Source of the DNA: a virus
DNA: 49,950 nucleotides
Direction: 5' to 3' (one strand)
IMG/VR virus record: IMGVR_UViG_3300042544_002488
Coordinates: 1 to 49,950 of that record
Made by a program: the position numbers and the translations under genes. Positions 6,057 through 44,831 of the stretch are shown one piece after another. The notes beneath the pieces were generated by a model that saw only the letters and a list, made by a program, of their open reading frames with translations, was not told the origin of the DNA and ran no database searches. How positions within the stretch are numbered: the first letter of the stretch is position 1; every line of letters starts with the position of its first letter.

Positions 6057-6149
6057 AGTCAGGTGGCGAAACGGTAAACGCAGTGTAGTACAATGTGACC
6101 ACTACGGGTGAGATACCCAGATTACAGGTTCGAATCCTTGTCCTGACCA
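6057..6149 (+). tRNA. Class II tRNA-like element, atypical anticodon arm
   Basis: Acceptor strand GTCAGG (6058-6063) pairs with CCTGAC (6142-6147). The D-arm is GCG/CGC with loop AAACGGTAAA. The long variable arm is GGGT/ACCC (6106-6118). The T-arm ACAGG - TTCGAAT - CC(T)TGT carries a canonical T-loop but needs one bulged base. The expected anticodon helix is GTAGT (6085-6089)/ACTAC (6101-6105) enclosing 11 rather than 7 bases, so no anticodon can be assigned. It could be a decayed tRNA-Leu/Ser, a modified tRNA or a tRNA mimic. It lies outside any coding region. Confidence 0.45.
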
Positions 6150-8100: not shown

Positions 8101-8577
8101 ATGACCAAATTAACAGAAACCCCCAATTACATTCCAGCACTTGCCGAGGCGATTCTTCCAAACGGACAGACACTATTTTGCCAGTTCGACAACTACGATG
8201 ACCTCAAGAACTTCCAAATCGAATCAGGCGGAAAGCCTTGCTTGGTTCAGTACGATAGGGATAATAATGTAAAGTTGATTCAGCATGATTATTTCAGGGA
8301 GTGCTTGGATTGGACTAAGGAATATGAAGATTACACAATGTACACGGAACGCCCGTGGCATTTTCTAAAAGACCTGTACGATAATAGCATGATGTATAAT
8401 ATGGATATACTTTACAAGTCACTTCTAAGGTCGTTTGATTGGGACAGAGAAGAATCGAGAGTATTAATTAAAATGGACTTATCTGAGCGTGAGTTTGATT
8501 TGATTGTAATTAATTATCCAGTCGTTAATCAGAATATCGGGAACGGCTTAAACGAAACTATGGGGGTGATTGTATGA
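8101..8577 (+). CDS. Hypothetical protein, 158 aa
   Basis: Acidic, Tyr/Asp-rich soluble protein without recognised motifs. It sits between the DnaA-like pair and a PP-loop enzyme and overlaps the latter's start by four bases. Translation coupling suggests shared expression, not necessarily a shared function. Confidence 0.6.
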   Translation: MTKLTETPNYIPALAEAILPNGQTLFCQFDNYDDLKNFQIESGGKPCLVQYDRDNNVKLIQHDYFRECLDWTKEYEDYTMYTERPWHFLKDLYDNSMMYNMDILYKSLLRSFDWDREESRVLIKMDLSEREFDLIVINYPVVNQNIGNGLNETMGVIV

Positions 8578-9449
8578 AAGATAAATTATTGATTTCATTT
8601 TCAGGAGGCAGAACATCTGCATTTATGACTTGGTGGCTTTTGAAAAACATGAAGCATAAATACGATATGATTGTTGTGTTTGCGAATACAGGGCGTGAAA
8701 GAGAAGAAACATTAGAATTTGTAAACAAATGTGATATTGAGTTTGGGTTCAATACCGTTTGGGTTGAGGCTTTTGTTCACAATCAATCTGGCAAAGGAAC
8801 TACGCATATTGTTACTAACTTTAACAATGCTGAAAGAAACGGTCAGCCATTTGAAGATGTAATTTTCAAATATGGAATACCGAATCAGAATGCCCCTCAT
8901 TGTTCCCGTGAGTTAAAAAAGCAACCTATTATGTCTTATGCCCGTAGTATTGGGTGGAATAAATATCAGACAGCACTTGGTATTAGAAGTGATGAACCTA
9001 AGCGGTTAAATTGGGAAACAAAAAGAAAAAATAATCTGGTATATTTTGCAGAGTTTTTTAATGTTGCTAAAAGCGATGTAAATAAATTTTGGTCAGAACA
9101 ATCTTTTGACTTAAGCCTAAAAAGTTACGAGGGTAATTGTGATTTATGTTACAAAAAAGGACTAAGAAAATTAATGACTTTAATAAAGTATAACCCAGAA
9201 ATGGCTGATTGGTGGAGAGAAATGGAATCAAAATATGAAAATCTTGATGTAAGAAATACAGGCAAAACACCTATTAGATTCTATCGTGATAATATGACAA
9301 TTGATGAAATAATTGAGGAAAGTAAATTGCCATTTGTTGAGGCAGTTGATGAAAGTAAGATTATTGCTACCGGAAAGCAAATGTCAATGTTTGACAATTA
9401 CTTGGACAGCAATTATGGTTGTGTTGAATCTTGTGAAGCATGGGGGTGA
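8574..9449 (+). CDS. PP-loop ATPase, PAPS-reductase (CysH-like) family
   Basis: Adenylating enzyme of the PAPS reductase/ATP-sulfurylase-like fold. The PP-loop SFSGGRTSA is at residues 8-16, followed by MIVVFANTGREREETLEFV, typical of the second nucleotide-contacting strand. Cysteines at HCSREL, NCDLCYKKG and the C-terminal GCVESCEAW could hold an Fe-S cluster. ALGIRSDEPKRLNW is a family-like loop. Genuine sulfate assimilation is unlikely in a phage; related PP-loop enzymes thiolate tRNA or DNA, so nucleic acid modification is the preferred inference. It shares little obvious sequence with the second PP-loop gene at 23041-23931. Confidence 0.82.
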   Translation: MKDKLLISFSGGRTSAFMTWWLLKNMKHKYDMIVVFANTGREREETLEFVNKCDIEFGFNTVWVEAFVHNQSGKGTTHIVTNFNNAERNGQPFEDVIFKYGIPNQNAPHCSRELKKQPIMSYARSIGWNKYQTALGIRSDEPKRLNWETKRKNNLVYFAEFFNVAKSDVNKFWSEQSFDLSLKSYEGNCDLCYKKGLRKLMTLIKYNPEMADWWREMESKYENLDVRNTGKTPIRFYRDNMTIDEIIEESKLPFVEAVDESKIIATGKQMSMFDNYLDSNYGCVESCEAWG

Positions 9450-13242: not shown

Positions 13243-13359
13243 TCAAAGTGTTAAATTGTGAATGATAAGTGTTATTGCCATTACAAACAGAATTACAATT
13301 AGCCATTCTGTGAATGACAAGGGGCGAAATTGTTTTGAACGATTGGGGAATTTTCTCAT
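13243..13359 (-). CDS. Small single-pass membrane protein, 38 aa
   Basis: Short frame just upstream of the 132-aa gene. It has a basic N-terminus (MRKFPNRSKQFRPLSF) followed by one hydrophobic helix (WLIVILFVMAITLIIH) and stops five bases before the next ATG. Its leader AACTAACAATTTAACC resembles those of its neighbours, supporting real translation. Confidence 0.5.
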   Translation of the reverse strand: MRKFPNRSKQFRPLSFTEWLIVILFVMAITLIIHNLTL

Positions 13360-13386
13360 ACTGATTAAATGGTTAAATTGTTAGTT

Positions 13387-13430
13387 CCCTGCCTACCTTC
13401 CGAGGGCAGTTAAGCAATATCACAGCAGGG
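13387..13430 (-). other. Bistable intergenic stem-loop
   Basis: On the plus strand CCCTGC (13387-13392) can pair with GCAGGG (13425-13430), or CTGCC (13389-13393) with GGCAG (13405-13409). The two folds exclude each other. On the transcript it sits between the 103-aa and 38-aa genes, followed by GGGAACTAAC, which is also found after the tRNA-like element at 13783-13830. Confidence 0.4.
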
Positions 13431-13438
13431 AGGGGGGA

Positions 13439-13750: not shown

Positions 13751-13782
13751 ACTTACTTTGGTTAAATTGTGAAATTGTTAGT

Positions 13783-13830
13783 TCCGGATGTAGGAATCGA
13801 ACCTGCCTGAATACCCTTTGTAAATCCGGA
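13783..13830 (-). ncRNA. tRNA acceptor/T-arm-like minihelix A
   Basis: Read on the minus strand: TCCGGAT, 17 unpaired bases, T-stem GCAGG, T-loop TTCGATT, CCTAC, then ATCCGGA. The acceptor helix is a perfect 7 bp and the T-stem has 4 of 5 pairs, giving the 12-bp acceptor-plus-T stack of a tRNA, but the D and anticodon arms are missing. It lies in the 3' untranslated space of dnaN. A second example is at 17198-17242. Confidence 0.55.
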
Positions 13831-13843
13831 TTAGCCTGATTAA

Positions 13844-14866
13844 TTACTCTGCATACGAACTAAGCATCACAGGCATTATTAGCATATTTGAATTAATCCG
13901 TCCACATCTGTTTGGAGTAGTAAGATTAAGTTCAATTACATTCCCCTTGCAATCCTTCAGGCACTCAATAAGGAATTTCGCATTAAATCCAAATTCCATT
14001 CCGGTTTCTCCATTCCATTCACAGGGGATATTCGTGCTGAATTCTTTAGCGTAGTCAATATCTTGAGTAGAAATAGTCATTTTCTCACTTGTAAGCGACA
14101 AACGGACTTGGTGGGTAGTTTTGTCTGCATATTTATCACAAGCTTGTAATCCGCTTATAATTGCCTGTTTCCCTACCTTAACAATCGTTTCAGTTAGTTC
14201 CGGAATTACATGCCAATAATCCGGATATTTGTCATCTATTAGCCGGGTTTGCAGGTATCCATATTCTAATTGAATACGGGCAATTTCGTGCAATTCGTTG
14301 ATTTCAATTGTACGGATTTCATTGCAGAATTTTTGTGCAACAATTAATGGCAAAACTATTCCCGGATTTCCTTCTTTATGGTACGGATTGGGTTCAAATT
14401 TCATTCTGTGAGCATCTGTTGAACAAATATCTTTGCCTACGAATATCCCATTCATAGCAGGTTTGTGTTCTTCTTTTGATGCAAATGGAGTGAAATCGGT
14501 TAAAACAGGTAAGGTAGTTTTGATACCGGGCTTGAATTCAGCAATTTTTGGAAAGTCATCAGGATTTTGCCCTACGATTTTCATAGTCATATCCCCGGTA
14601 CTGAATACGATTTCGCAATTTTCACCTACCTGCATTTCGACAATTCTATTCCCTAAAGTTTTAAGGGTATCCATAAACTCCCTAAAATCAATACAGATTT
14701 CAGGTAGGTTTTTGTAGGGAATATGTACGGTTTGCTCAAGGTTTGTTCCTGTAAATCCGGTTGAATCTAATTTTACACATTCACAAATATGTAGTGTGTG
14801 GCGTTTTGGAATTACTACCTGCATTGGAGATAGCATTTTGATTAAGAAAGAAGGATTGATTTTCAT
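13844..14866 (-). CDS. dnaN: DNA polymerase III beta sliding clamp
   Basis: Ring-shaped processivity factor. The 340-aa length and three-domain organisation fit bacterial beta clamps. Recognisable stretches are VQVGENCEIVFSTGDMTMKI-type strands in domain 1, the start of domain 2 with NGIFVGKDICSTDAHRM (the family signature (V/A)ATDGHRL-like), and a C-terminal IELNLTTPNR...MLIMPVML ending that forms the partner-binding pocket region. No phage DNA polymerase is in the window, so its partner is elsewhere or is the host enzyme. It follows radC-like and parB-like genes with the shared TTCACC leader. Confidence 0.9.
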   Translation of the reverse strand: MKINPSFLIKMLSPMQVVIPKRHTLHICECVKLDSTGFTGTNLEQTVHIPYKNLPEICIDFREFMDTLKTLGNRIVEMQVGENCEIVFSTGDMTMKIVGQNPDDFPKIAEFKPGIKTTLPVLTDFTPFASKEEHKPAMNGIFVGKDICSTDAHRMKFEPNPYHKEGNPGIVLPLIVAQKFCNEIRTIEINELHEIARIQLEYGYLQTRLIDDKYPDYWHVIPELTETIVKVGKQAIISGLQACDKYADKTTHQVRLSLTSEKMTISTQDIDYAKEFSTNIPCEWNGETGMEFGFNAKFLIECLKDCKGNVIELNLTTPNRCGRINSNMLIMPVMLSSYAE

Positions 14867-14889
14867 TGGTTTTTGGTTTGAGGGTGAAA

Positions 14890-15375
14890 TTATAAATTAC
14901 ATTCATCTGCAAAGGAGTAATACTCATTCCCTTCAGGGCTTAGAATGATATGGTCAAGCAATTTGATTTCTAACAGGATACACGCTTGTTTTAACTTAGT
15001 GGTAATATCTAAGTCTGCCTGTGAAGGTTTTAGGCTACCTGAAGGGTGATTATGGCAAATAATCAACTGACTTGCACCTGATAATATGGCTGCCCTTAGA
15101 ATATATTGAACATCAACAACGGTTGCAACTGCTGAACCTTCTGAAACTTTCAGGAATCCCAATACTTTATTACCCTTATCAATGAGCAAAACAGAAAATA
15201 TTTCTTTTTGCTCAATCATTCCTAATTGTTCATAAAACATTCTTAGTATTTTATGGGAATCCTGCGAACTTCTCAAACATTCTCTATCTGAAGGTTTTAC
15301 CTTTGTCCGGTAATTTACTGACACTTCAGCAACACCCGATAAGTCTGTGATTAACTGTTTAATTTGTGGTTTCAT
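14890..15375 (-). CDS. radC: RadC-like JAB/MPN domain protein
   Basis: Short RadC-family protein (161 aa) holding only the JAB domain. The metal-site motif is complete: His108-Asn-His110, Ser112 and Asp121 in HNHPSGSLKPSQADLD, with an upstream Glu in the EIFSVLLID strand region. The N-terminal HhH domain of chromosomal RadC is absent, as is common for mobile-element copies. The biochemical role of RadC is not settled; a link to replication or recombination is inferred from neighbours. Confidence 0.9.
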   Translation of the reverse strand: MKPQIKQLITDLSGVAEVSVNYRTKVKPSDRECLRSSQDSHKILRMFYEQLGMIEQKEIFSVLLIDKGNKVLGFLKVSEGSAVATVVDVQYILRAAILSGASQLIICHNHPSGSLKPSQADLDITTKLKQACILLEIKLLDHIILSPEGNEYYSFADECNL

Positions 15376-15380
15376 TGGTT

Positions 15381-15596
15381 TTATTGGTTTGAGGGTGAAA
15401 GTGAAAAAAACAAGTGAAGGGTATTGGTGTTTTTTACTAATATTCCATAATTATATCCGAATGGTTCCCATTCTTTAATAATCATTTTTTCTAAATTGTC
15501 CTTTGTTTCATTCCCTAAATTTGGGTGCCAAATTTGCATCCCTGCATTTTGGAAGGGAAATTCAGAGTAATTGTTAATAATTTCAATGGTTATCAT
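15381..15596 (-). CDS. Hypothetical protein, 71 aa
   Basis: Small soluble protein with an aromatic core (AGMQIWHPNLGN, WEPFGYNYGILVKN). No family recognised. It is preceded by the shared leader (TTCACC ... ACCAATAAAACCA-ATG) and ends five bases before radC starts. Confidence 0.6.
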   Translation of the reverse strand: MITIEIINNYSEFPFQNAGMQIWHPNLGNETKDNLEKMIIKEWEPFGYNYGILVKNTNTLHLFFSLSPSNQ

Positions 15597-15624
15597 TGGT
15601 TTTATTGGTGAATAGGTGAATTGA

Positions 15625-16425
15625 TTAATTACTGATTTCCTGTTTTACATTCAGGACAATAGAACTTACAGGAATATTACCCTGGATGGCCTCCCAAATG
15701 AGCAAAATTGAGTCAATACCTGTTTTAGCATGGAGTTCTATCAATACCCGTTCTGCTTGTTCTAATCCCTTAGCAGGTGATTTTACAGGGGAACTTTGCC
15801 CGGTGATTCCTTTGCTTTCCTGTATGGTTTTTTTAACTTTTGCAGGACTGATTTTGCCTGTGGTTTGATCCTTTGCGGAATTGATAATTTCCAATAATTC
15901 AGATTCAGAATCCGTTTGCTTCATAGCTTGAATAACTACTGAACTTGATACATTTCCCTCCGTTATCATTTCCTGAATGATTCCAGGGGCATAAGATAGG
16001 GCCAAAATATCCCGGATATATTGTTCGCTGAATGTACATCTTTTGCAGATTTCAGGTATTGTCTGCCCTGATAACTCAAGGTCCTGCAAAACTTTGCCCA
16101 ATTCCAGGGGAGTAAGTGATTTTCCCGAGTTTCCGTTAATCTGTAAATATAGGCTGTCTGCTTCGCTGAATTCTGATTCTGATTTTACTAAGCAAGGTAC
16201 AGGAAATTCAAATCCCTGTAAATTTAGTTCCTGCAATGCCCGGAACCGTCGGAACCCGTCCCTTATATGGAATAATCCGTCCGGACCTTCAAATCCCTCC
16301 AGTGGTTTAATAATGCCATTTGTACGGATGTTCTCCGCAAGGTTCTGAATATCCCCGTAATCATTTCGGGAATTAATTTGCTCATTGGAAACGAGCTGCG
16401 AGAATTGAAATGTTTTTAATTGCAT
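15625..16425 (-). CDS. ParB-like nuclease/DNA-binding protein
   Basis: The start at 16425 (MQLKTFQFSQLV) is chosen because the longer reading runs into the neighbour and because the shared leader precedes it. The N-terminal ParB/Srx domain is visible: NLAENIRTNGIIKPLEG and the ParB box GFRRFRA at residues 57-63. An HTH follows (IPEICKRCTFSEQYIRDIL). The 266-aa length fits. No ParA is seen and no canonical parS, so it may regulate or bind DNA rather than partition. It lies in the dnaN operon. Confidence 0.88.
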   Translation of the reverse strand: MQLKTFQFSQLVSNEQINSRNDYGDIQNLAENIRTNGIIKPLEGFEGPDGLFHIRDGFRRFRALQELNLQGFEFPVPCLVKSESEFSEADSLYLQINGNSGKSLTPLELGKVLQDLELSGQTIPEICKRCTFSEQYIRDILALSYAPGIIQEMITEGNVSSSVVIQAMKQTDSESELLEIINSAKDQTTGKISPAKVKKTIQESKGITGQSSPVKSPAKGLEQAERVLIELHAKTGIDSILLIWEAIQGNIPVSSIVLNVKQEISN

Positions 16426-16429
16426 GGTT

Positions 16430-16759
16430 TTATTGGTTAAGTGGAAATTGTGAAAATACTGAACCTGTTTCCCTTGTTTCAACAAGTTCTAAGTTTATTT
16501 CGGAAATTGAATAGTATTCAATTAACAAGGCGTTCTCAATCATTTCAATAGGTTCTGGTAACTTTATGCCTTCATACTTATAGATTCGTATGCAGGTAGA
16601 TTTTTCGTTTATTCCTATCCATTTATTCGCCTCTTCTTTTGCATCAGGTATCCAATTTTCTAATTGTTCTAATGCCTGTGAATAATCAGGGAATGATTCT
16701 ATAAATGTATCCCCGTTCTGTGCTGAATACTCGCAAAAATAAATGATAATTTTTTTCAT
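16430..16759 (-). CDS. Hypothetical protein, 109 aa
   Basis: Starts MKKIIIYFCEYSAQ and continues with a predicted helix DYSQALEQLENWIPDAKEEA, suggesting a small alpha/beta fold. Function unknown. Shared TTCACCC/ACCAATAATAAAACC leader; five-base-scale spacing to parB-like gene. Confidence 0.6.
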   Translation of the reverse strand: MKKIIIYFCEYSAQNGDTFIESFPDYSQALEQLENWIPDAKEEANKWIGINEKSTCIRIYKYEGIKLPEPIEMIENALLIEYYSISEINLELVETRETGSVFSQFPLNQ

Positions 16760-16958: not shown

Positions 16959-17165
16959 TTATAATTGAATAACACTACAATTGTACGGAATATCCCGTAA
17001 CTCGATACGGCCATAATTGGAACTGTAATATCCCTGTGATGAATATCTATTCCGGAAATTAATTAAGGCCCTTAGTACCTGGATATGTCCTTTGTAAACG
17101 GTTTGTTCTCTGTTTAAATCAAATCCATCGGGTGATAAGATTCTGAATTTTGGTAATTTTTTCAT
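16959..17165 (-). CDS. Conserved-looking small protein, 68 aa
   Basis: The product has the pattern PKFRILSPDGF ... FRNRYSSQGYYSS ... GRIELRDIPYNCSVI, a motif set I associate with small proteins of Bacteroidota mobile elements, without known function. The QGYYSS block is distinctive. Downstream of minihelix B on the transcript, with the shared TTCACC leader in between. Confidence 0.65.
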   Translation of the reverse strand: MKKLPKFRILSPDGFDLNREQTVYKGHIQVLRALINFRNRYSSQGYYSSNYGRIELRDIPYNCSVIQL

Positions 17166-17197: not shown

Positions 17198-17242
17198 GGG
17201 AATAGCAGGGAATCGAACCCTGCTAAATTTCCAAACATTCCC
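17198..17242 (-). ncRNA. tRNA acceptor/T-arm-like minihelix B
   Basis: On the minus strand: GGGAATG, a 12-base spacer, GCAGGG, T-loop TTCGATT, CCCTGC, then TATTCCC. The acceptor helix has 6 Watson-Crick pairs plus G-U and the T-stem has 6 perfect pairs, a 13-bp stack capped by a canonical T-loop. As in element A the D and anticodon arms are missing. It occupies the gap between the 145-aa and 68-aa genes. Confidence 0.6.
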
Positions 17243-17253
17243 GGAAATAGGTT

Positions 17254-17691
17254 TTAATTACCTATGTAATTTTTATAGGTTTTTTTGGAAAGGTTCCGCT
17301 TGAAATAGGCCCTTAGCGTATCCCCTGTATTATAAATGTGATTCCCGTCTTTGTCCGTTTCTTCTCTCAGGTTATCCCATATAATTGATTTTAGTGCCTG
17401 ACAAGCTGCGGGCCTGTATTCTGTGGGGAAATATTGACCGGTACAGTATTTTAATTCCTGTGATTCATTCAAAGTCAACCGTCCGGAATTCTTACTCAAG
17501 TATTCAGTTAATTTTTGATCTAAATCTGAACCCAACCGGATAAAAGCAAGGCTCAACAATTCTCTAAAGTCGTGTAGGTCCTTTGTAATTTCACGCATTT
17601 CAGCGAAATAAATTTTACGGTCCCCATAGTCGGCAAATGATAAGCCTGGTTTTTGATTTGCGAATTGGATTAATTTTTCTACTGTGTTCAT
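17254..17691 (-). CDS. Hypothetical protein, 145 aa
   Basis: Soluble helical protein (VEKLIQFANQKPGLSFADYG at the start; YFKRNLSKKTYKNY basic at the end). The middle has ELKYCTGQYFPTEYRPAACQ. No family known to me. The shared leader form TTCACCTAATTAAAACC precedes the start. Confidence 0.6.
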   Translation of the reverse strand: MNTVEKLIQFANQKPGLSFADYGDRKIYFAEMREITKDLHDFRELLSLAFIRLGSDLDQKLTEYLSKNSGRLTLNESQELKYCTGQYFPTEYRPAACQALKSIIWDNLREETDKDGNHIYNTGDTLRAYFKRNLSKKTYKNYIGN

Positions 17692-23040: not shown

Positions 23041-23931
23041 TTATTTACCACATAAAAGACCGCAAGATGTTATTTGAAGCATATCCTGAAAGTCTGTACC
23101 ATCATTTGTGTTTATTGATTCAAAATTCATTTTTAACTGCCTTGTCTTTTCAATAAATTTTACAATTGAATCTGTCCTTTTATTAAATATTTCATCAGAC
23201 CTATCCGATATGTTTTTAAGTGAATTGTCTTTGCCGTTAAAAAAATATTCAGAAACATTATGCTCCCATCCTTCATACTCCCAAAACATTTCTGGGTGAT
23301 GTTCAAGCAATCCAATCCATTCGTAGAGGCGTTGATTAAAGCACATAGAACAATTTGTCCTTGACCTCCAAGCGAACAAAGCATCAATATCCCACTCCTT
23401 AAATGTATTTTTTATGTATTGTTCATCGCATTTTAAAACTACTGAATCCCATAGTCTTTGCCAAAAGAATACAGGAGGTTTTAATTTCGCTTTGTGATTT
23501 ATTTCATATACCATAGGCAGTGTTATACCTTCTTCGATTAGTGGATAAATAGGAGTTATATTCTTGTACCTAAAGTTATTGTATCCAATTCTATTTTCAT
23601 CTGCTCTAATTCCATAATAAACAAGCGTTTCCCCCTTACCAATAAACTTCTCCATTGGCTCTATTTTTGCCATACGAGTACAATATCTGGCTTGTCTTGA
23701 AGGTAAAAACCAGTTCATTTCATATTCTATAATTTCCTTCAAATCTTCACCAACCCTAATAATAGGTTTGCCTAAGTATGATTCTACTTTGTCTATCCAC
23801 TGTATAACTTCTGGCAATTCTTGACCAGTAGGATTAAACATAAACTCATAATCAATGTTTGGCTCTCTATTCAATTGAATCAAAGCCGTTGCTAAACTAT
23901 CCTTTCCGCTTATTGGAATTATATGCCTCAT
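23041..23931 (-). CDS. PP-loop ATPase, PAPS-reductase-like (second copy, divergent)
   Basis: PP-loop IPISGKDSLATA (residues 5-16) with the canonical SGxDS signature, followed by YEFMFNPTGQELPEVI. It contains FLPSRQARYCTRMAKI and GIRADENRIGY, typical of phage PAPS-reductase-family proteins, and NCSMCFNQRLYEW with a CxxC pair. The C-terminus ends CGLLCGK. It is not a simple duplicate of the gene at 8574-9449; conserved blocks differ. Thiolation or another adenylation-dependent nucleic acid modification is the inferred role. It is the first gene after the 24477-24508 promoter. Confidence 0.8.
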   Translation of the reverse strand: MRHIIPISGKDSLATALIQLNREPNIDYEFMFNPTGQELPEVIQWIDKVESYLGKPIIRVGEDLKEIIEYEMNWFLPSRQARYCTRMAKIEPMEKFIGKGETLVYYGIRADENRIGYNNFRYKNITPIYPLIEEGITLPMVYEINHKAKLKPPVFFWQRLWDSVVLKCDEQYIKNTFKEWDIDALFAWRSRTNCSMCFNQRLYEWIGLLEHHPEMFWEYEGWEHNVSEYFFNGKDNSLKNISDRSDEIFNKRTDSIVKFIEKTRQLKMNFESINTNDGTDFQDMLQITSCGLLCGK

Positions 23932-32321: not shown

Positions 32322-32468
32322 ATGATGATGCAACCAAAACCTGCTAAAAAAATGGCACCTGCCAAGAAAATGGCACCTGCCAAGAAAAGTTCTCCTGCTA
32401 AAAAAGCGGTTCCTGCGAAGGGTATGGCAACTGCAAAGAAAGCAATGATGAAGTACAAAAAGTATTAA
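32322..32468 (+). CDS. PAKK-repeat basic peptide, 48 aa
   Basis: Begins at triple ATG (32322-32330). The product is almost entirely Lys/Ala/Pro with PAKK or PAKx units repeated (AKKMAPAKKMAPAKKSSPAK...), as in the tails of histone H1-like and AlgP-type DNA-binding proteins. An 18-bp tandem repeat underlies two of the units. It sits between portal and scaffold and is followed by a strong terminator. DNA condensation or virion packaging is inference. Confidence 0.7.
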   Translation: MMMQPKPAKKMAPAKKMAPAKKSSPAKKAVPAKGMATAKKAMMKYKKY

Positions 32469-33782: not shown

Positions 33783-35024
33783 ATGGCAAGTACACAATAC
33801 ACCCCGCCTAATGCAGCGTATAATAATAACGCAGCAAACCCCCTTGGTTCCTTTTGGGGAGGTCTAACAGGCCAACAACAAGCAATCCTCGAAAGAGAGA
33901 TTTACACTTCGATTGTAGATTCTGCCCCACAGCAGTTTTACGATTTGAAATTACTTATGGACAAATCACCTATCACTAAGACAAGTGATGAACACGAGTG
34001 GTTTGAAGCTCCTTATGACCGTTATGGTCTTCCTGTAAATGCCGTAAGTGCAACTGTTACATGGCCAACTACTCAGAATGTAACCCTTGTTACTTCTGAC
34101 AATGTTACCTTGAACATGGTATTGACTTACCCTAACAACAAGCAAGGAACTGTAACTGCTAAAGCCGGTAATGTTATTACCGTTACTCCAATGCAGAACG
34201 ACAGCCTTCCTGGTATTGCAGCAGGTGATGTTCTTACCTTTGCTTCTCAAATCGAGGGTGATAGTGCTACCAACATCAGCAACTACTACCGTTTGAACCT
34301 TCAGCGTAAATACAATTACATTTATCTGTTAGCGATTGGTATGCGTTATGGTTTTGTTGAATTGTTGAAATACAAGTCAAACAACTACCTGCCTACTTTC
34401 CTTGCAGACGAGCGTGATAGAATGTTGAAAAACTTCCGTATCTCTATGTCCAACCAATTGTGGATGGGTAAAAAAGGTATGATGTTCTTGGCTGACGGAA
34501 CTCCCGTTAAAATGATGGGTGGTATCTTGAACGAAATGTTGGCTGCTGGTAGTCCGAACATTCAAACTCCTATTTCTTCTTTTGGAGATGCCGTTGAATC
34601 AGCGTTGCTGAACACAATGGGTGGTCCACTTGGAGAAGAGAAGTTCTTGTTTGCTACTCCTACTCGTATCCTTCAATTGTCTAAGCAGTTTAAGTCTGCC
34701 TTGACTCGTTACACTCCAAACGACATGGTTGCTAAATTGAACCTGAACATGATTGACATCGGTTCAGCAAAAGCAGTTTTAGTACCTAATTTGCGTTTTG
34801 AGGACAGAGCAAGTTTCCCTGCTGCATGGCAAAATTATGCCTTCGTATTGCAGAAAGAGAAAATCAAAACTGTTAAATTGTTAGGCTATGATGCTACTTG
34901 GACAATCAATCCTCGTAACAACGGTGGTCCATCTTTGAACAACTTCTATGAGTTCGGAATGAGTTCTTCTTTGGGCTTACAGTTTGAGGCTCCACAGTAT
35001 TCTTCATTGATTACAATTCAGTAA
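33783..35024 (+). CDS. Major capsid protein
   Basis: 413-aa protein right after the scaffold. N-terminal NNNAANPLGSFWGGLTGQQQ, then an extended-loop-like segment and the helix/strand mix of the HK97 fold (LNMIDIGSAKAVLVPNLRFE, WTINPRNNGGPSLNNFYEFG). Codon use is biased to frequent codons, as for an abundant product. Identification rests on position, length and expression signals, not on a recognised motif. Confidence 0.8.
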   Translation: MASTQYTPPNAAYNNNAANPLGSFWGGLTGQQQAILEREIYTSIVDSAPQQFYDLKLLMDKSPITKTSDEHEWFEAPYDRYGLPVNAVSATVTWPTTQNVTLVTSDNVTLNMVLTYPNNKQGTVTAKAGNVITVTPMQNDSLPGIAAGDVLTFASQIEGDSATNISNYYRLNLQRKYNYIYLLAIGMRYGFVELLKYKSNNYLPTFLADERDRMLKNFRISMSNQLWMGKKGMMFLADGTPVKMMGGILNEMLAAGSPNIQTPISSFGDAVESALLNTMGGPLGEEKFLFATPTRILQLSKQFKSALTRYTPNDMVAKLNLNMIDIGSAKAVLVPNLRFEDRASFPAAWQNYAFVLQKEKIKTVKLLGYDATWTINPRNNGGPSLNNFYEFGMSSSLGLQFEAPQYSSLITIQ

Positions 35025-43200: not shown

Positions 43201-44831
43201 AGGCTTTTGGAGGCGATGCTTATACCGGTGATGATACAGCCTGTTTTGTTGATAGACAAATTCCTAATGGCGGTGGAAATCCAGCAAATACAGGTACAAG
43301 TTCTCCACTACCACTTAACCTTGGTTTGCCTTACTATGAGATTCAGGTTAATCCAAGAATGTTTATTACTCAGGATGCCAGAGGTGGTGGAAACAAAATT
43401 CAAGATTGCAGTAGTTTGCAAAGTAGGTGGTTACGGCAAATGATTGCTTTATTCAATTGCGAAAGCCGGATTCATCTGCCATACAACTACGAAGCACCAA
43501 TAACAGACCCACCAAGTTATCAAATGGGAAAATTCTTCCCTGCGACAAACTATATCATGCGTCCTAATGAATGGGAAACAACAGTTCAGGACGATAACTT
43601 CTGTGGTGGTTCAGGTATTATTTATGACAACTATAAGTCTGACTATCCTGACGAATGGATTTATTGGAGATACGGAGGTTACAGATACCAACCTCAATTC
43701 AATATTGACTATTTACACATCCAGAATGTTACTTTTTGGACAACTAAACCAACAACAGGATTTAGGGAATTAACAGAATTTTGCACAAGGGATGCTTATA
43801 GCCTAAAGCGTGAAATTGCCAGAGTAGATTCTCCAGGTATCAGGACTTTCCTTGCCCAAAATGTTTATGACTTGGATGATCAAACAGGAGAAATCAAATT
43901 TGCTTGGTCTGCATTGGGAGGAAACAAGGGTAATAACCTATATGCTTTTACCGAAAGGGGTATGTGTTTATTACTTACTGAGGATGCTATTATCAGGGAT
44001 GCAACAGGTGAGCAGATAGCAATGGGGTTAGTAACTGAGGGTAAGGTTATCGGTGGCGAGTATTGGATTAGCCGAGAGATAGGCATGAATGAGGAGTCTT
44101 GGAGGTCAAGGGCTGAGTATAATAATTCATTGTATTTTATGAATAAGACAAGTGCTTATTTATTCAATGGGAATGAAGCCTTAGATATTGCAAGGAAATT
44201 CAACTATTTCGCTAAGATAATTCAGTATTTGAATGCTTTTGGCAATGGATATGCTACTTGGATTACATCATGCTACGACACTAAGCACGAAGAGTATATG
44301 GTTCAGATACAGAATACAAGGGAGGAAACTCAATTGTTTGTGTTTAGCCAAAAGAATCAAGCTTGGAATGGCAGGTATTCATATCGTTATGACCAATACC
44401 TGAGCTTTGATAATCAAACTTACGGAATGGGTAGGTGGATAGATGGTGATGAAGCAGGTACTTACTTGTTGGATACAGGGGATAGGATAAATAATAATGT
44501 TGTTCAGGCTAAGGTTTGGCAGTCAAGTGCTAAGAATCAGATATTGGCTAAGGAGTTTCAGGGTATTAGGGTTAGTTCAAGTCAGGTTCCTACGAGGGTA
44601 AATTTGTTTGACAATGTTCAACAAGCGGAGGCAGGAACGATTCAATGTTTTATCAATGGTGCTGATTTAAGGAATTACGGAAGTGCTTTTGAGCAGTACA
44701 TTGGTAGGAGAATAATTGCAGGAAACGACAATAGAATGCAGGGAACGGCAATTGTTTACGAAATAACCTTTGGTGGAAGTGGGGATTTTAAGATTGTGAG
44801 TTCCGGAATTTATTGGAAACCTTTAGTATAA
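40224..44831 (+). CDS. Very large tail/virion structural protein, 1535 aa
   Basis: Predominantly beta protein with Thr, Asn, Tyr and Gly. It contains numerous ADxxTQ-type turns, a Cys-rich patch (TKNDCCSFKNIACDGQKQDG), and a C-terminal propeller-like region (NLYAFTERGMCLLLTEDAII, SLYFMNKTSAYLFNGNE). Size, beta content and place suggest a tail hub, stabilisation or needle protein of a podovirus-like particle. Specific function unknown. The region ~85-195 is duplicated in the upstream small gene. Confidence 0.7.
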   Translation: MPLPIHNQKGTEIDVKAFNKGASYSIDEQFLGQSDSGMYIDAENMRPTGLNADEMALSRISGEEIEYISEDNSCNSYYGATFINGAWRCLGTIFVKGKIVELWCDELQTLAPFIRIDGIIYAASPQLPIDIDYPIQFHWNNTCLGGEIYLTDNRTAPIILNVQDMIDSSEPVCTEKYFTEFDRRRYEVNTQMPPHMMSFVELTPSPGYPADKVIGSVGLKVGMYSYSFRYVTTSGDRTAWTNVTPTIPVPVQINTNSGQYPSIKTYGADPNTQTGYGIVLNFRIQNELGYDYIEIKRYSYNTGVPVGFTPSAELIGTLGLVDGENVVKYIVDFGAVGEPITDEDDTVQYGPIEACKTLRYFENRLHLMNVRYASMDFTPTFVSNGRPNLFPVMAPLGIVGYNDAYYTTYYRSLFRGEKYGFGVGFWNTLMGQSFATPVTGFTNYQLPDRRDTASADTQTYSYTTLPRASVYQTNSDDFCHETYSLVNAVTKNDCCSFKNIACDGQKQDGGILTCDGNEGITNMPAFCGCGSVSNPTQAVDIGYQPLTPISERDPSVTGHDYVINTRVQNDCSSLADFHPAGFAPEYFALGVALNGIDDSLLPSYIQAFSILRTKPAGRVVFQGIGGYYLYPNPSGNATDPAYKATDKLWFYSFEASARSGLISQQVINEIGNNVSSRYEAQLVSPVGIFPEVPHGENRTGLQEDHIDMCLYPRFYEDNATINLTPDPTSTGGYVQFGKWRNAGFPGWEANLNINRASFGLNEFRSANNSGTDTSGIGNEYLGDRGNQFFVLGTSTAVYNVQSVGSNACDNKYPSADLKSFHEPWYNINIIDTLANIPATDVTTYFDTGAYQKLRSWVGTYTPSTTFFILAGDERWEDIRPWTPNNILTGTVTEVNANTINSIIQIEKPDGTVEYYLNVDGVGAGAVAALSALLPFTIGAGATSKPNVTISGLYGTTLATTPYPRIYSIVFNAGSTPVTGSKVIIKYDNEVPVKAFGGDAYTGDDTACFVDRQIPNGGGNPANTGTSSPLPLNLGLPYYEIQVNPRMFITQDARGGGNKIQDCSSLQSRWLRQMIALFNCESRIHLPYNYEAPITDPPSYQMGKFFPATNYIMRPNEWETTVQDDNFCGGSGIIYDNYKSDYPDEWIYWRYGGYRYQPQFNIDYLHIQNVTFWTTKPTTGFRELTEFCTRDAYSLKREIARVDSPGIRTFLAQNVYDLDDQTGEIKFAWSALGGNKGNNLYAFTERGMCLLLTEDAIIRDATGEQIAMGLVTEGKVIGGEYWISREIGMNEESWRSRAEYNNSLYFMNKTSAYLFNGNEALDIARKFNYFAKIIQYLNAFGNGYATWITSCYDTKHEEYMVQIQNTREETQLFVFSQKNQAWNGRYSYRYDQYLSFDNQTYGMGRWIDGDEAGTYLLDTGDRINNNVVQAKVWQSSAKNQILAKEFQGIRVSSSQVPTRVNLFDNVQQAEAGTIQCFINGADLRNYGSAFEQYIGRRIIAGNDNRMQGTAIVYEITFGGSGDFKIVSSGIYWKPLV

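Follow-up and report, generated by a model that had tools for sequence, protein, structure and literature searches.

Mini-tRNAs without an anticodon arm between phage genes: a family of candidate message punctuation signals

Transfer RNAs (tRNAs) punctuate mitochondrial transcripts. According to the sections cited here, the t-elements of plant mitochondria are non-tRNA substrates of protein-only RNase P (PMC4919922), and bacterial RNase P cleaves model hairpins made of an acceptor stem, a T-stem and a T-loop, its known substrates including phage M3 RNA, C4 RNA and T4 gene 32 mRNA (PMC11143913). Here we describe a family of natural elements, termed mini-tRNAs, that stand between phage genes and keep the acceptor and T-arm of a tRNA. 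The first of them, element A, occupies positions 13783-13830 on the minus strand of a 49,950-nucleotide (nt) stretch of viral DNA (positions 1 to 49,950 of IMG/VR record IMGVR_UViG_3300042544_002488; the window), next to a dnaN-like sliding clamp gene. We consider it slightly on the probable side that such intercistronic mini-tRNAs serve as punctuation marks at which host RNase P, 3′-tRNA processing enzymes, or both cut the message.

Like mitochondrial tRNA punctuation and t-elements, mini-tRNAs are tRNA-like elements between genes that could define RNA ends, but they are phage-borne, shortened to an acceptor, a T-arm and a D-arm remnant, and presumed rather than known to be cleaved. The RNase P model hairpins share nearly the same architecture (PMC11143913), yet are synthetic, whereas mini-tRNAs are natural, have a 10-26-nt loop that often holds a D remnant, and lack CCA. 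M3 RNA, C4 antisense RNA and T4 gene 32 mRNA are also phage RNAs, other than tRNAs, that RNase P handles; as described in the cited sections they do not form a family of acceptor/T-arm elements located where genes meet, which sets them apart (PMC11143913). The tRNA-like domain of transfer-messenger RNA (tmRNA) comprises the upper half of a tRNA with a deformed D-arm, no anticodon and a 5′ end made by RNase P (PMC3985003, in the section cited), but its third acceptor pair is a conserved G-U, whereas the mini-elements have C-G (13 of 14) or A-U (1 of 14) there. In mascRNA and menRNA of MALAT1 and MEN-beta, a tRNA-like structure within a longer transcript sets an RNA end, as the cited part of PMC4919922 relates; their host transcripts, unlike those of mini-tRNAs, are mammalian long non-coding RNAs. 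A search of titles and abstracts, mostly outside subscription journals, returned no printed description of such elements. Punctuation based on tRNAs is itself known elsewhere.

On the minus strand, element A opens with the acceptor 5′ strand TCCGGAT (13830-13824) and closes with the 3′ strand ATCCGGA (13789-13783), which pair over all 7 base pairs (bp), as the initial annotation of this DNA had reported. Also as reported, the T-arm carries a canonical TTCGATT loop (13801-13795), flanked by the stem strands GCAGG (13806-13802) and CCTAC (13794-13790). Four of the five T-stem pairs form, and the stack, previously given as 12 bp, consists of 11 pairs and one C·A mismatch. The 17-nt stretch that links the two arms, T(TAC)AAAGG(GTA)TTCAG (13823-13807), has the length noted earlier; it is, however, probably not wholly unpaired, as a 3-bp D-arm-like hairpin with a GG loop, TAC-AAAGG-GTA (13822-13812), can probably form within it. 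The anticodon arm is the sole part clearly absent. The earlier label ‘half-molecule’ is therefore not fully accurate, since both acceptor strands, the T-arm and a probable D remnant are present. N73 (A) and a CTAA trailer, reading on as CTAAC, follow at 13778-13782.

Folding of element A by itself cannot dismiss a chance hairpin; the motif scans, the relatives and the unrelated phages described below do so, and element A is confirmed as real and as a member of a family. ARAGORN called no tRNA gene in the window, in which it found no full cloverleaf with an anticodon arm, and Rfam at the gathering score gave no match there; the Rfam tRNA model RF00005 scored 12.6 bits at element A (E 0.36; cut-off 29). 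Between 13200 and 14000 there is no intrinsic terminator, taken as a G+C-rich hairpin followed immediately by a T run.

The lineage of the window was scanned for T-arms with a TTCRANN loop directly next to a 7-bp acceptor, over 14 records including the window (560,099 bases). The scan gave 18 matches, 15 of them mini-elements and the remaining three ordinary tRNAs, all in one record (G010). As the set contains two near-duplicates of the window, the shuffle control used the 12 other records, ten shuffles of which averaged 0.3 matches. Besides element A, the matches comprise element B in G004, G005, G008 and G013, element C in G008, and element D in the window, G003 and G012. A second, loop-free scan of 482,538 bases, for five T-stem pairs, seven acceptor pairs and an N-C-(T/A)-A-A trailer, gave nine matches, each of them A, B or the second element of the window described below (0.1 in shuffles); it misses C, D and, because of the T-stem mismatch, element A of the window itself. 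A search for a hairpin followed by CTAA without the T-arm condition was uninformative, with about 100 shuffled matches expected over all records.

Searched with the clamp protein, the database returned only two contigs, with 100% identical protein and identical DNA across the elements. A capsid-side protein (window 33783-35024) gave 12 loci at 100% to 34% identity, and the clamp was then sought in 12 records, 11 from these loci and one already known. It matched in five, two identical and three at 59-60%, and element A is kept in all five; the two identical records, G012 and G003, do not differ from the window over the elements and so provide no independent evidence. In the three diverged records the DNA match is confined to window positions 13830-13767, the element and the sequence after it, at 82-85%. 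A further record, G013, came from a DNA pattern, outside the clamp search, and has an element identical to that of G005. Over 54 nt, element A of the window is 85-87% identical to its relatives (46 and 47 of 54), compared with 68% for the clamp DNA, whose own 54-nt stretches average 67%, with six of 266 overlapping ones reaching 85%. The element stands between the clamp gene and a gene for a short protein beginning MRKF in all diverged relatives; in the window, a 103-amino-acid (aa) reading frame (P0002) and a second element are interposed before MRKF. In G005 and G013, dnaN is extended at its C-terminal end by about 39 residues, ahead of the mini-tRNA (L033 278-1471; L039 about 9240-9378), and the position of the element in G005 is unaltered despite this clamp tail.

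Compensatory change in related phages, which the initial annotation had proposed to look for, is present: acceptor pairs 6 and 7 changed on both sides with pairing kept. At pair 6 the window and G005 have A-U, G004 has G-U and G008 has G-C; at pair 7 the window has U-A where the relatives have A-U; the mismatched T-stem pair, C·A in the window, is U-G in the relatives, and the D-remnant pairs are invariant. Changes on both sides thus affect two of the 15 pairs, compared with none in slid controls (four sequences). We rejected two other readings of the same DNA. One is a pair of palindromic operators, TTCCGGAA: the palindromes are lost in G004 and G008 while pairing persists; the U-A/A-U flip taken by itself is also compatible with the operator reading. 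An open frame does cross the element in the relatives, but a 1-nt insertion or deletion relative to the window falls within the conserved loop, which argues against coding. In the relatives a TTG-started frame runs through the mini-tRNA (..GIQVGSIPA..) at L033 1449-1739, L034 1315-1575 and L035 1375-1635, where misannotation as a protein is possible.

The family extends to unrelated phages. Virus contigs searched for the T-arm followed by GGA-N-CTAA yielded at least 120 stretches. Among the matches listed, there were 99 distinct sites in loci new at that stage; ARAGORN called a tRNA at 65, and of the 34 others among these listed matches, seven (G008, from the lineage of the window, and six other contigs, L138, L139, L141, L154, L173 and L190) had an acceptor partner that pairs at all 7 of 7 positions and lies no more than 41 nt upstream, where shuffled upstream sequence gives an expectation of 0.058. 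Element C, counted as a member, is one of the 27 listed sites lacking such a partner, and some of these 27 may likewise be members that bear mismatches. When elements of the form TCCCGAG...CTCGGGA were sought with no constraint on the trailer, 16 contigs came up, of which four were known from the earlier searches. All 16 have a purine at position 73 followed by C74-(T/A)75-A76-A77; in 15 the distance from the element to an ATG is 21-25 nt (in L234 it is 62 nt), and in 14 a stop codon precedes the element by 6-35 nt (85 nt in L224; L227 lies near the end of its locus). The isolate-style form of their identifiers suggests that L141, L154, L224, L225, L226 and L229 may come from cultured hosts. 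Across 14 distinct elements, all 12 pairs changed on both sides, 97.6% of cells pair and none of 500 shuffles matches this, in a set most of whose rows were chosen for pairing; the four-sequence covariation and the acceptor-partner test are less biased. Three loci with gaps of 28-35 nt and an imperfect acceptor (L134, L127, L125) were left out of analyses A6 and A8 and of the loop statistics, and the MAFFT alignment (A6), which misplaced the variable loop, was not used for counts.

Among named phages, no mini-element was found in Salinibacter phages M1EM-1 and M8CR30-2, in bases 1-50,000 of the 54,012 of Cellulophaga phi38:2, or in bases 1-50,000 of the 78,833 of Tenacibaculum Gundel_1; three matches in these Salinibacter, Cellulophaga and Tenacibaculum phages have no tRNA-type trailer and were read as chance. 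Comparison of the elements with named phages by BLAST gave short matches, many to full tRNA genes. Rfam at the gathering score, run on ten element-bearing loci, had no match over any mini-element; the same search located two group I introns in contig L173 (1776-2041 and 3061-3361).

The recurrent order is a stop codon, a short spacer, the mini-tRNA, N73-C-(T/A)-A-A, 15-33 nt and an ATG. Elements are 41-57 nt long, with 10-26 nt from acceptor to T-arm. This fixed place, right after a stop codon and ahead of a leader, together with helices that in several members are stable to −20.1 kcal/mol, would also suit a mini-tRNA that remains uncut, or is cut at just one end, and acts as a stable end or as an insulator against exonucleases or ribosome carry-over. 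We regard this as unlikely: a plain hairpin would be enough for such a role, which needs neither a 7-nt T-loop, nor the 7+5 geometry, nor a tRNA-type trailer. Acceptor and loop sequences differ widely between elements while pairing is kept, which is expected for an enzyme that reads the shape of a tRNA and not its identity. The same variation, along with a spacing to the start codon that would not be needed in trans, makes it decidedly improbable that the element is released as a small RNA serving as decoy or sponge for enzymes acting on tRNA ends (defence nucleases, CCA-adding enzyme or other tRNA-binding factors), even though the loss of the anticodon arm would suit such a decoy and defences that cut tRNA tails exist, Cas12a3 touching the acceptor stem, T-arm and CCA tail (PMC12851939, in the part cited).

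Two further traits tie mini-tRNAs to tRNAs. In ten of 15 families, a hairpin of at least 3 bp with GG in its loop can form between the acceptor and the T-arm (4.2 expected; none of 5000 composition shuffles), and in five a hairpin of at least 4 bp (1.8 expected, P 0.012), in a test devised after the sequences had been seen and on families that are not fully independent; with related rows kept, the hairpin is found in 17 of 22. In tRNAs, G18 and G19 contact the T-loop, and we read the GG of the remnant loop as their counterpart. Among 528 full viral tRNAs from the same loci, outside the search pattern, 416 have C74 and 317 A76, the commonest trinucleotides after N73 being CTA (124), CAA (94) and CCA (48). 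The mini-element trailer follows this viral habit and is a third tRNA trait beside the helix geometry and the T-loop. The full tRNA-Lys genes annotated in Salinibacter phages (L219 25210-25283; L222 26491-26564) are placed much like the mini-tRNAs, with 32 nt separating each from the coding sequence that follows.

Phages often carry tRNAs, the present lineage includes an odd Leu-type tRNA, and the intergenic tRNA-Lys genes of the Salinibacter phages are similarly placed. It could therefore be supposed that mini-tRNAs are tRNA genes in decay, or tRNA 3′ ends that remain from integration events (attP), with no present function. This is very improbable: double changes preserve the helices, the same truncated plan recurs in unrelated phages, the ATG spacing is conserved, and the element is more conserved than dnaN. 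Furthermore, the collection of bacterial and archaeal genomes contained no match to GTATTCAGGNNGGTTCGATTCCTNC, which leaves no host tRNA that would fit an attachment site. As to ancestry, ten genome loci, nine actinobacterial (Micromonospora and kin) and one on a contig of the Parcubacteria group, share the T-arm and acceptor 3′ strand of element A, and ARAGORN calls tRNA-Gln(TTG) at nine of them (L054 is uncalled), which is a slight indication that element A descends from a tRNA-Gln-like ancestor.

The genes around the elements change. The gene that follows element B differs between G004 and G008, and the one that precedes it between G013 and G008; within the TCCCGAG family, judged by eye, similar preceding genes have different followers (e.g. 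L138, L139, L141, L190), and similar followers come after different preceding genes (L225, L229). Such changes suit a signal that makes its neighbours independent, and they also sustain a different reading, supported in addition by the interposition of P0002 and the second element in the window, by which the elements are boundaries of module exchange at the DNA level, recombination hot spots or cassette sites, with the RNA shape secondary. We give this reading only a slim chance. The elements are strand-specific, always lying in gene direction between two cistrons; pairing survives sequence change, with a G-U intermediate in G004; and the Pfam tyrosine recombinase PF00589 was found in none of 13 records, several of which are fragments. 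Returning to punctuation, a tentative and nearly evenly balanced proposal is that phages evolved, spread and exchanged anticodon-less mini-tRNAs for this purpose, as the counterpart in bacterial viruses of tRNA punctuation in mitochondria, the decoding arm being lost since RNase P and 3′ processing would need no more than the remaining handle, so that new cassettes bring their own cut signal.

We propose the following model for punctuation, in which cutting at one or both ends is suggested by the literature on RNase P and t-elements and by the position of the elements. Within the transcript, the element would fold as the upper half of a tRNA, with acceptor and T-arm stacked. Cuts would be made by host RNase P on the 5′ side of the element, and after N73 by RNase Z or exonucleases. 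Division of the polycistronic message would leave the upstream gene with a fixed 3′ end, while the transcript of the downstream gene would have its 5′ end at that gene's own leader for ribosome loading, much as in mitochondrial punctuation by tRNAs. The suggestion in the initial annotation that tRNA-processing enzymes may be recruited to cut the message agrees with where the elements lie, with their trailer and with the cleavage of hairpins by RNase P. The host itself may belong to the Bacteroidota, as A-rich leaders and the best clamp matches, which are in Salinibacter phages, with Cellulophaga also matching, would suggest.

Several observations weigh against punctuation by mini-tRNAs. E. coli RNase P favours a 3′ CCA (PMC11143913, in the section cited), which mini-elements lack. 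The 48-mer of element A is no more stable than expected (folding energy z = −0.10, with 88 of 200 shuffles equally stable), its T-stem carries the C·A mismatch, and its covariation is reached by 52 of 500 shuffles with four sequences. Seven of the 14 related records (G001, G002, G006, G007, G009, G010 and G011) have no mini-element; one of these, G002, has the MRKF gene without a preceding element, no clamp match and an identical capsid-side protein. The second element of the window has CTCGGAA in place of a canonical T-loop and no GG in its loop.

Should the proposal hold, phage gene expression would be shaped by tRNA-processing enzymes acting on a signal that is compact, recognisable and portable, and transcript ends in many uncultured phages would become predictable from sequence. 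The elements would then constitute a natural set of minimal substrates of RNase P and RNase Z, showing which part of a tRNA is sufficient in cells, and would account for ‘tRNA fragments’ consisting of a T-arm alone, which annotation tools skip in virus genomes or misread as small proteins.

All further elements and genes of this region lie on the minus strand. The clamp gene (13844-14866; PHROG 947, E 6e-43) has its stop codon 13 nt ahead of element A. The ATG of P0002 (13439-13750), which has no family and no match among named phages, is 32 nt past element A. The second mini-tRNA, TCCCTGC-15 nt-CTGCC CTCGGAA GGTAG-GCAGGGA (13386-13431), has a 7-bp acceptor and five T-stem pairs including one G-U, and is followed by A-CTAAC; the MRKF frame (38 aa, 13243-13359) starts 26 nt past it, its homologue coming directly after element A in the diverged relatives. 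When the window was searched with its own DNA, the 27 nt after element A recurred at 13362-13388, and the hairpin of the second element likewise stops directly before GGAACTAAC. Used as a search key, the leader repeat GGNACTAACANTTNNNCNATTTAA matched L007 and L009, which are coding matches by chance. Similar leader stretches stand ahead of start codons at 14865-14896, 15376-15407 and 16425-16456 (family D3). Element D, the third mini-tRNA, GGAATG...GCAGGG TTCGATT CCCTGC TATTCC (17199-17241), is a 6+6-bp stack followed by C-CTAAAA; a 145-aa frame (17254-17691) ends 12 nt ahead of it and a 68-aa frame (16959-17165) begins 33 nt past it.

Elsewhere in the window, two genes, at 8574-9449 (plus strand) and 23041-23931 (minus strand), both match the phosphoadenosine phosphosulfate reductase family phrog_424, and 18-nt tandem repeats at 32322-32441 may, by eye, code for units rich in Lys, Ala and Pro. 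The Leu-type tRNA-like gene, which has an enlarged anticodon loop, lies at 6057-6149 (plus strand) in the window, at 15561-15652 in G012 and at 44254-44340 in G008; it scores 29.6 bits in the window and 45.5 in G012, where ARAGORN calls a tRNA-Val with a 6-nt intron, and the window copy has one additional T in its T-arm.
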